Assembly (NCBI GenBank): GCA_027943245.1
Contig: JANDJZ010000772.1
Location: 1-21,987, forward strand
From: Acanthamoeba sp. SK_2022b
Lineage: Eukaryota; Discosea; Longamoebia; Acanthamoebidae
DNA: 21,987 nucleotides
Direction: 5' to 3'
The notes under the pieces are model-generated. The model was not told where the DNA came from, searched no databases, and saw only the letters and a list, made by a program, of their open reading frames with translations. Position 1 is the stretch's first letter, and every line of letters starts with the position of its first letter. The position numbers and the translations under genes are program-made. Shown here one piece after another: positions 1,624 to 7,666 of the stretch.

Positions 1624-4600
1624 TTACTGCTGCTGCTCCGTGGGATAGTGGACAAAGCAAGAGATCATCAGCTGCTGGTTGGTGACCGCTGTTTTGAACT
1701 CCTCGTAGTTGATTTCGCCGTCCCCGTTCACGTCGATCTGGCGGAAGCACTCGTCCACCTTTGCATTCCGACCCACCACAAGTAAGTATGCATCGGTGTG
1801 AGCACACGCGCGCGCGTGGGAGCAAAGAAGGGTTGGGATGGAGGGAGATACCATATCGCGAATCTCCTTGGTGCTGACTGGCTCTCCCTTGGACCCTAGC
1901 GAGGCTTTGAAGATATTGTAGACCTCGTCTGGGGTGAGCGTACCGCTTCCGTCCACGTCGTAGGCATCGAACAGGACTGCGCGTGTCGGGCGCAGTGTCA
2001 CCAAGAAAGCAGCAAGAAAGAAAAAAAGAAAGAAAGAAGGGGGGGTGACGTCATTGTGGTAAGCAGCAGCGTACACTTGAGGCGTTCCTCCATGGTGCCC
2101 TTCTGTACCACGGATAGCCCGGTCACAAACTCCCTGAAGTTGATCTTGCCGTCCTGCAAGTCGCCCCGGCCACCGTGAGCTCATCGGAAACCACCATCTG
2201 CGCAGCTGCGCAGGTACACACTCACCTTATTGTGGTCGAACGCGGAGAAGTTCTGTTCGATGATGAGCGGATCCGAAATGCCGATAGCGTTGAGTCCCGC
2301 CTCGAACTCCTGATCGATGTTTGAGGGAGGGGTGGGGGAGGACAAAGAAACGCGTGGGTGAGAAAAAAAGAGTTGCGCAAGAATAGGGAGGAGGAACCAG
2401 GGGGGTGGGGTGGCGGGGATACCTCACGCCCAACGTATCCGTTTCGTGCCTGCTTCAACCAATTGGCGTACAGCTTTTCCAATTCGTCGCGGGAGACTGC
2501 CGAGGGTAAGGAGAGAGTGTCACGATAAAGACCCCCTTCCCCGCCACAGCACACGCGCGAGCGCACAGAACTGGGCGACGTACAGTGGGTGGTTTGTTCA
2601 AGCTGGGCCAGGAGAGCCTTTTTCTCCTCCCGCTTGATGTGATCGAGACTGTCACCAAATGAAAACGCCTCACCCTCTAGTACACACAACAACAACAACA
2701 ACAACACACACACACACACACACACACACACACACACACACACACACAGAGAGAGAGAGAGAGAGACGTCACCAACGTGAGTGGTGGTGAGTTGTCGGCG
2801 CAAGAGCACGCAGGCAAGAGGTGAAGAGTCGTACGGCGTATGGGAGGCGTAGCGAGGGGGAAGTGGAGGGTGGGCATAGGCGAAGAGGCCCCGCTCACCT
2901 GCCCGCTCGAGTAGCCGCCGCGCGGTTGTGAGTGCGGAGACGAGGAACGGGCAGAGGATACGTGGCGTGGGACACTCGACTGAACCACGCCTGGTCCCGT
3001 TCCGCCATCGACCTGCTTGCCTTTCCTCTGCGAGTCGGTCGCCTCCTCCTCCTCCTCCTCGCCATCGTCGGCTTGCTCGGGGCCAAGCACGTCGTCGGCG
3101 GGACGCTTGCGCTTACGGAGCGGCGAGCCAGGAGGCGACGCGCGAGGCGAAGGAATGGGAGAGCCGCGAAGGGAGGCCGAAGGGGTGGCTAAAGGCGAGA
3201 AGGCCGGAAGTCCCTGCACGCGAACCAACCCCACGCGCTCGCATTAGTAATCCACCAATCCGCTCACCGCACTTGAGGTAGCAACAACACCAGTATTCAA
3301 CAACAACAACAACTACAACACCATTAACATTAACACCAACAACAACAAACATTCGACAAACATTCGCGAGTAATTCGCAAGAGCAGTGAGCACCCGAATA
3401 GAAATGCGAAGCTTAAGGGTCTTCGCGGCCTCCTTCAGGTGCTTGTGGATGGCTGTCTCCAACGAAGCTTGAGAATCAATCGTGATTGATTCACCTTCTT
3501 CGTCCTGTGTGTGTGTGTGTGTGTGTGTGTGTGTGTGTGTGTGTGTGTGTGTGTGTGTGTGTGTGTGTGTGGGCGGAGTCAGCGCAGGGCGGAAAGCAGA
3601 TACTCAGAGAGTAAGTAACACCCGGCTCATTGTTACCTTGTAGGTGACCGTGAGAGGACCAACGTATTTGGCCTGAAGCTCGCTGAGAAAGTCGTGATAG
3701 CGCACATCGCGAGGCACTTCAACAACGCGGATGTCGTCGCCATGATAGCATTTGACCAGAACCTGGAGGAGTGAGTGCACAACCACCGCCGCCCACCGAC
3801 CGCCGCCGCCACAGCAAATGAAGTGATGCGCGTAGTTAGTCGAGTGTGGTAAACGTGGTGACGGAGAAGCGGGAACAAAGGGTGCCTTGTTGTCGAGGTG
3901 GTCTTGGTTGTCCTTGAAGTACTCCTTCCACACGGACGCTATCATTTGCGATATGTGGCGAGAGATCTTGGCCTCGCTGTTGCCGTCATGCACGCGCTTG
4001 ATCTTGAAGAGAAGGGATCGGATCTTATCCTGTAAAGGCGCGGTGAGTCAGATAGATAGATAGAAAGATGCAAGGCATCACGGCAGTTGGTTGTTGAACA
4101 AACGGTCGGCCAATGCGGGAGGAGGGCCGCACCTCTACAGGTGCCTCTCCGGGGGTGTGAGAGTTCTGGCGCCAGGCATCGAGCTCGTCCTTGGAGGCGT
4201 AGCGCAGAGCCTGGAGCACGCCGCGGATGCTGTCGACACATCCCATATCAAATGACAGTGCGTACTGTGTGTGTGTGCGTGTGTGCGTGCGTGCGTGTGT
4301 GTGTGTGTGTGTGTGTGTGTGTGTGTGTGTGTGGTGCGTGTCGCAAGGAGGCTCGTCAGTGAATGTAGTAGTAGCAAGAAACCCAACCCGTGCGTTAAGA
4401 TTACCTGGTTGAGCTTCTGCTTCTCCTCAGCTTCCATTTCGCCCACGTTGACGATATTGTCCAGCGCGGCAAGCACGTCGCGAACAAACTCGAAATTGAA
4501 GGAGGGCCCACAGAACTTGTAGATTTCGGTGAGGACCTGGTCGTAGACCTTGAAGTGCACCAGTGACTTGGCAAGCGCCTGGACCACGCCCTGTTTCACG

Positions 4601-7600: not shown

Positions 7601-7666
7601 GAGTCAATCTCTCTGTGTCCAACCAATTGCGGATATGTCGGACGACGCGACGCTCGCACGCACCAT
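1624..7666 (-). CDS. Predicted EF-hand / importin-alpha-like armadillo / PB1 / EF-hand fusion protein
   Basis: Reconstructed as 23 exons (1086 aa, no internal stop): 7664-7666, 7482-7608, 7248-7371, 7081-7156, 6765-6956, 6387-6541, 6156-6270, 5860-6036, 5526-5723, 4938-5282, 4736-4857, 4405-4606, 4133-4264, 3877-4029, 3637-3762, 3394-3504, 2899-3213, 2584-2674, 2423-2496, 2226-2309, 2075-2153, 1852-1976, 1624-1758. Residues 29-40 (DKDGSGSIDLPE) and 66-77 (DKDHSGTIEWEE) are canonical EF-hand loops. Residues 86-174 are basic then acidic/linker. Residues about 175-695 follow importin-alpha armadillo repeats 1-10 (e.g. DDKQTQFLIDSG, APQIEYLVKQG, ALDNIVNVGE). Residues 708-786 form a PB1 domain with Lys711 and an acidic DEEGE motif at 750-754. 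Residues 787-891 are disordered with six S/T-P sites and RKRKRP at 819-824. EF-hand loops follow at 971-982, 1007-1018 and 1051-1062, with a degenerate one near 935-946. I infer a calcium-responsive scaffold or transport adaptor; no single known gene matches. The first (ATG-only) exon is the least certain part. Confidence 0.8.
2686..2766. repeat. Compound (CAA)n-(CA)n-(GA)n microsatellite in intron
   Basis: Three adjoining simple repeats in the intron between exons 2899-3213 and 2584-2674 of the minus-strand gene. In the sense direction it reads TC, then TG, then TTG, next to the 3' splice site near 2675. Confidence 0.95.
3285..3352. repeat. (CAA)n-rich imperfect repeat in intron
   Basis: Degenerate CAA/ACC/ATT triplets inside the intron between exons 3394-3504 and 2899-3213 of the minus-strand gene. 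Not coding. Confidence 0.8.
3506..3571. repeat. (GT)n microsatellite abutting a 3' splice site
   Basis: Pure GT run on the plus strand, read as CA in the sense direction. It runs directly into the acceptor AG at 3505-3506 before the exon that completes the PB1 domain, so it stands where a polypyrimidine tract would normally be. Confidence 0.95.
4266..4333. repeat. (GT)n/(GC) microsatellite abutting a 3' splice site
   Basis: GT run with CGTG interruptions. In the sense direction it is a CA tract ending in the acceptor AG at 4265-4266, right before the exon at 4133-4264. Confidence 0.95.
4649..4694. repeat. CAACAACCAA-type repeat in intron
   Basis: CAA/CCAACAA units inside the intron between exons 4736-4857 and 4405-4606. 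A related GTT-type repeat occurs at about 12062-12103 in the exoribonuclease gene. Confidence 0.9.
5300..5461. repeat. Long (CA)n with CACG interruptions in intron
   Basis: About 160 bp of CA and ACGC units filling most of the intron between exons 5526-5723 and 4938-5282 of the minus-strand gene (GT orientation in the sense strand). The H/T- and C/V-rich reading frames over it are repeat artefacts. Confidence 0.95.
6570..6667. repeat. (CA)n microsatellite in intron
   Basis: Almost pure CA run of about 98 bp in the intron between exons 6765-6956 and 6387-6541. Confidence 0.95.

Follow-up and report, generated by a model that had tools for sequence, protein, structure and literature searches.

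On the minus strand of contig JANDJZ010000772.1, in the assembly of Acanthamoeba sp. SK_2022b (GCA_027943245.1), a gene between positions 1624 and 7666 encodes a protein that joins an EF-hand pair, an importin-alpha-like armadillo (ARM) solenoid, a PB1 domain, a linker and a second block of EF-hands in one chain. The stretch analyzed, here called the window, is the whole of positions 1 to 21,987 of that contig, a length of 21,987 nucleotides (nt). The composition of the protein, its conservation among relatives and its loss of import features are established by the sequence comparisons below, and on balance we lean toward reading it as a single-chain Ca2+-sensing, PB1-oligomerizing ARM scaffold that arose from importin-alpha and would no longer act as a receptor for nuclear localization signals (NLS).

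Gene model and family

The minus-strand reconstruction runs from an ATG at 7666 to a TAA at 1624 through 23 exons (3,237 nt), and encodes 1,078 amino acids (aa) with no internal stop; all 22 introns of this first model are GT..AG. The original prediction had proposed one continuous 23-exon gene, and the uninterrupted reconstruction, single-chain relatives and short introns all agree with it. Its 22 junctions stood as regards the open frame, but two of them are at odds with P0001, the closest relative (93% identity over aligned positions), and judged by that protein these two probably lie elsewhere. Correction moves the end of exon 14 to 3886, with a GC donor, so that "APF" drops out (P0001-P0004 lack three residues that the first model puts between "NK" and "VLVK"), and sets the end of exon 17 at 2835 and the start of exon 18 at 2676, restoring 22 residues whose counterpart is present in P0001. 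The corrected protein has 1,097 aa and its reading frame stays open. Its introns measure 72-243 nt (median 117.5), lengths that could hardly accommodate separate genes between one domain and the next. Several of them contain long (CA)n/(GT)n tracts (at about 2700-2750, 3507-3570, 4267-4332, 5310-5460 and 6570-6666).

Pfam places an EF-hand pair at residues 12-75, ARM repeats, a PB1 domain at 700-774 (E 4e-10) and C-terminal EF-hands in the window protein, and the domain order first proposed is that found by Pfam and in the relatives. The latter came from three protein searches, each limited to scoring roughly the 8,000 candidates with the most words in common with the query; 23 are counted, and P0015-P0019, P0024 and P0030, which have EF-hands or ARM repeats only, were set aside. 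In one alignment, 11 of the 23 carry all blocks in full order. Two of these 11 bear MMETSP names (P0003, Stereomyxa; P0007, Mayorella) and three bear Trinity names (P0009, P0022 and P0025), which we take to be marks of transcript assemblies. A chance fusion is unlikely, since 11 of the 23 relatives keep the complete order and five of those 11 stand under such names. Among the others, the first EF-hand is missing from three (P0006, P0013 and P0014) and the N-terminal part from three more (P0010-P0012), the C-terminal EF-hands are wholly or partly absent from P0004 and P0023, and the remaining four are fragments, N-terminal for P0026-P0028 and C-terminal for P0029. The family is conserved in Stereomyxa (Amoebozoa incertae sedis), Mayorella (Discosea) and Balamuthia, and in further relatives without an organism name. 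The uniqueness that had been implied for this architecture was thus contradicted by the 23 relatives, though they apparently stand under no family name, and the statement that no such family had been described was upheld by literature searches, which found no published description of the EF-hand, ARM and PB1 architecture.

A search of the genome with P0001 gave 43 places, and outside this contig only partial matches (ARM, EF-hand, PB1 or linker) were found, on which ground we rejected a second full copy. Family pattern scans of viral_contigs (87 matches) and genome_contigs (149 matches) yielded no relative.

The importin-alpha-like solenoid

The window protein contains a tandem ARM solenoid of the importin-alpha type. 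Its hits in a search against solved structures are importin-alpha and designed ARM proteins; the fold-match list was filled by the ARM part, and the fold results cover that part alone. Homology to importin-alpha runs along the length of the solenoid, the ARM9-10 segment included, and the relationship named in the original prediction is therefore real.

The features by which importin-alpha carries its cargo are another matter. No importin-beta-binding (IBB) domain was matched at E values up to 10 in the window protein or in P0020. The same genome encodes a separate importin-alpha, L015, that has both an IBB and the ladder. When family members were aligned locally to the L015 IBB, seven of eight scored no better than shuffles, and the score of the eighth, P0013, was reached by 24 of 300 shuffles; an IBB remnant in the basic segment ahead of the solenoid is unsupported on both counts. 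Four further importin-alpha-like loci of this genome, L014, L016, L017 and L018, start without an IBB, unlike L015, a statement that covers their readable first exon only. Of the Trp/Asn ladder that binds NLS, 12 positions were compared in 19 members, and the one residue commonly retained is the ARM4 Trp (12 of 19).

These results bear on the proposal that the protein is a working Ca2+-regulated nuclear transport adaptor, in which the ARM repeats would carry cargo, perhaps of a non-classical kind, and Ca2+ would gate import. The clear importin-alpha ancestry (ARM9-10 included), the ARM4 Trp, an ARM8 Trp present in 8 of 19 members under one register, and the NLS-like clusters of many members speak for it. 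Given that the IBB is undetectable, that most of the NLS-binding ladder is gone across the family, and that L015 stands in the same genome with both, we consider such an adaptor improbable, and the "transport adaptor" of the original prediction is not supported.

PB1 domain, linker and EF-hands

A PB1 domain of type I/II has, by the definition in PMC7051960, a beta-1 lysine plus an acidic OPCA core, and by these features the window PB1 is of type I/II. Across the family the lysine is present in 20 of 21 members and the acidic core likewise in 20 of 21. A PF00564 search of the genome found 28 places that could be candidate partners; the window PB1, split over two exons, is not among them.

The linker that follows, encoded by exon 17, is probably disordered according to the predicted model. 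An NLS-bearing linker had been proposed, and an NLS-like RKRKR cluster is indeed present there in the window protein and in P0001, with other basic linker clusters in seven further members. Counted over the family, NLS-like clusters lie in the N-terminal region in 15 members and in the linker in 9, the window protein and P0001 having them in the linker only.

The N-terminal EF-hand pair matches calmodulin in the search against solved structures, and canonical 12-residue loops are found in 14 of 16 members for EF1 and 19 of 20 for EF2. A conserved basic segment (VHKKIKSFFAQFKK) connects this pair to the solenoid; its helical moment is 0.40-0.58 in 15 of 16 members, P0022 being the exception at 0.25. 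It also resembles, weakly and below the Pfam cut-off, the DUF7067 domain found in alpha-glucan water dikinase (window protein, E 0.028; P0020, E 0.0015).

Within the C-terminal block the first hand is degenerate in all members compared (canonical in 0 of 18), and loops are canonical in 15 of 20 (EFb), 15 of 19 (EFc) and 18 of 18 (EFd). The window protein has five canonical loops and one degenerate loop in total. Among solved structures the C-terminal block resembles calcineurin B (E 7.8e-29), GCAP1 (E 8.8e-25) and neuronal calcium sensors (NCS), and it also matches the EF-hands of NOX5 (E 1.2e-15). The first hand is often degenerate in calcineurin B, GCAP and the neuronal calcium sensors, and the window block likewise has four hands of which the first is degenerate, but it is fused to ARM and PB1 parts and is not a free subunit.

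The NOX5 match raises the proposal of a regulatory partner of NADPH oxidase, with a PB1 domain like that of phox subunits and EF-hands like those of NOX5. P0029, from Balamuthia mandrillaris and related to window positions 1624-4264, is named "NADPH oxidase 5" in NCBI, but it starts inside the last ARM repeat and contains PB1 and EF-hands only, and Pfam found no oxidase (ferric reductase or NADPH-binding) domain in it or in the window protein, which has EF-hands alone in common with NADPH oxidase 5. Calcineurin B and GCAP1 match far better than NOX5, and the name therefore looks like an EF-hand artefact; literature searches found nothing linking Balamuthia to NADPH oxidase 5. We rejected an oxidase reading of the name, and consider an oxidase partner very improbable. 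P0029 also holds a stretch resembling an unspliced intron, and from its sequence seems to be a misnamed, truncated model of the Balamuthia member of the family. That two or three neighboring genes were wrongly joined is scarcely credible: the model rests on genomic DNA of the window species and not on its own transcripts, and P0029 and some other relatives are fragments, but 11 of the 23 relatives carry the same order in a single chain (five under transcriptome names) and the longest intron is 243 nt, on which grounds separate genes were rejected.

Table 1. Features of the gene in the window, in the order of the protein
Feature	Positions	Strand	Exons	Basis
Whole gene (1,097 aa corrected; 1,078 aa first model)	1624..7666	-	23 exons	reconstruction and relatives
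N-terminal EF-hand pair, two canonical loops, calmodulin N-lobe-like	7248..7584	-	2-3	Pfam, structure matches, loop count
Conserved basic amphipathic segment VHKKIKSFFAQFKK, without IBB match	6765..7156	-	4-5	family alignment, IBB tests
ARM solenoid homologous to importin-alpha, conserved family-specific inserts, NLS-binding ladder mostly lost	4133..6541	-	6-13	structure, fold, family alignment
Helical segment between ARM and PB1, corrected donor GC	3886..4029	-	14	helix in predicted model of P0001
PB1 domain, beta-1 lysine and OPCA core, type I/II	3394..3762	-	15-16	Pfam, structure matches, family count
Low-confidence linker, S/T-P sites and RKRKR, extended to 2835	2835..3213	-	17	P0001 comparison, predicted model
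Four EF-hands, first degenerate, three canonical, calcineurin-B/NCS-like	1624..2676	-	18-23	structure matches, loop count

Proposed mechanism, setting and meaning

The original prediction had also offered a calcium-gated scaffold recruiting PB1 partners, and we infer this to be the best reading of the predicted function. The PB1 domain would chain copies of the protein head-to-tail or join it to PB1 partners, while the solenoid would hold a client through the conserved family-specific inserts and not through the old NLS groove. Both EF-hand units would sense Ca2+, the N-terminal pair perhaps gripping the adjacent basic amphipathic helix and the C-terminal block acting as a calcineurin-B/NCS-like module, and Ca2+ would open or close the scaffold by way of these units. 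The protein may itself be nuclear-import cargo, as the basic clusters suggest. Ca2+ binding, oligomerization, partners and location are all predicted features.

Several observations weigh against this scaffold. The PB1 domain of P0007 (Mayorella) has neither the lysine nor the OPCA core, and the window PB1 matches solved structures weakly (best to PKC-zeta, E 0.002, then to TFG, E 0.04). P0004, given as a complete open reading frame, stops ahead of the C-terminal EF-hands. In a profile alignment the ARM8 Trp falls opposite W519 of the window protein by way of a three-residue gap, the register in which 8 of 19 members retain it, and loss of the groove may still be compatible with non-classical cargo. 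Finally, the basic helix has low confidence in the predicted model (block means 32-46); the model thus gives no backing to an EF-hand/helix switch, which remains a proposal only.

Set beside known systems, the family protein differs from importin-alpha in its undetectable IBB, its mostly lost ladder, its added EF-hands and PB1 and its conserved solenoid inserts. With atypical PKC and TFG, the type I/II PB1 proteins whose PKC-zeta and TFG sequences are the closest in the PDB, it shares a PB1 with lysine and OPCA core, and by its Pfam list it lacks the kinase domain and their other domains. PB1 and EF-hands also occur together in proteins of protozoa and chromists that the main text of PMC7051960 (Sci Rep 2020) describes as hard to classify and as mostly confined to one sequence or one species; that text never uses "armadillo", and its proteins are compared here by description only. 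The individual parts are known ones, and their combination and importin-alpha origin appear to be new.

Elsewhere in the window, neighboring genes lie at about 1-1530 and 8000-12500 (plus strand) and at 14081-14422 and 16695-17759 (minus strand), with Pfam matches to a piece of an ABC1-type kinase (E 2.6e-15) and a ubiquitin-conjugating enzyme (E 4.9e-45). Judged by eye, a gene tail-to-tail with the importin-derived gene is presumably of a PBZ-like zinc finger protein, and that on its other side presumably RNase II/R-like, one scanned piece of it being without a Pfam match. Positions 18087-21822 hold about 3.7 kb of His/Thr/Asn-rich repetitive sequence, open in several frames on both strands, and probably a CAC/ACA-type satellite.

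At a little under even chances, and again judged from sequence, we would extend the scaffold reading to an undescribed family, its named members amoebozoan, in which importin-alpha became a Ca2+-controlled, PB1-polymerizing scaffold that is perhaps itself nuclear-import cargo. The family brings to light an NCBI model from Balamuthia that carries the wrong name, and it may house some of the hard-to-classify PB1 and EF-hand proteins treated in the 2020 survey (PMC7051960). If the reading is true, a core nuclear-transport receptor would have been stripped of its defining function and rebuilt as a calcium-signaling scaffold.
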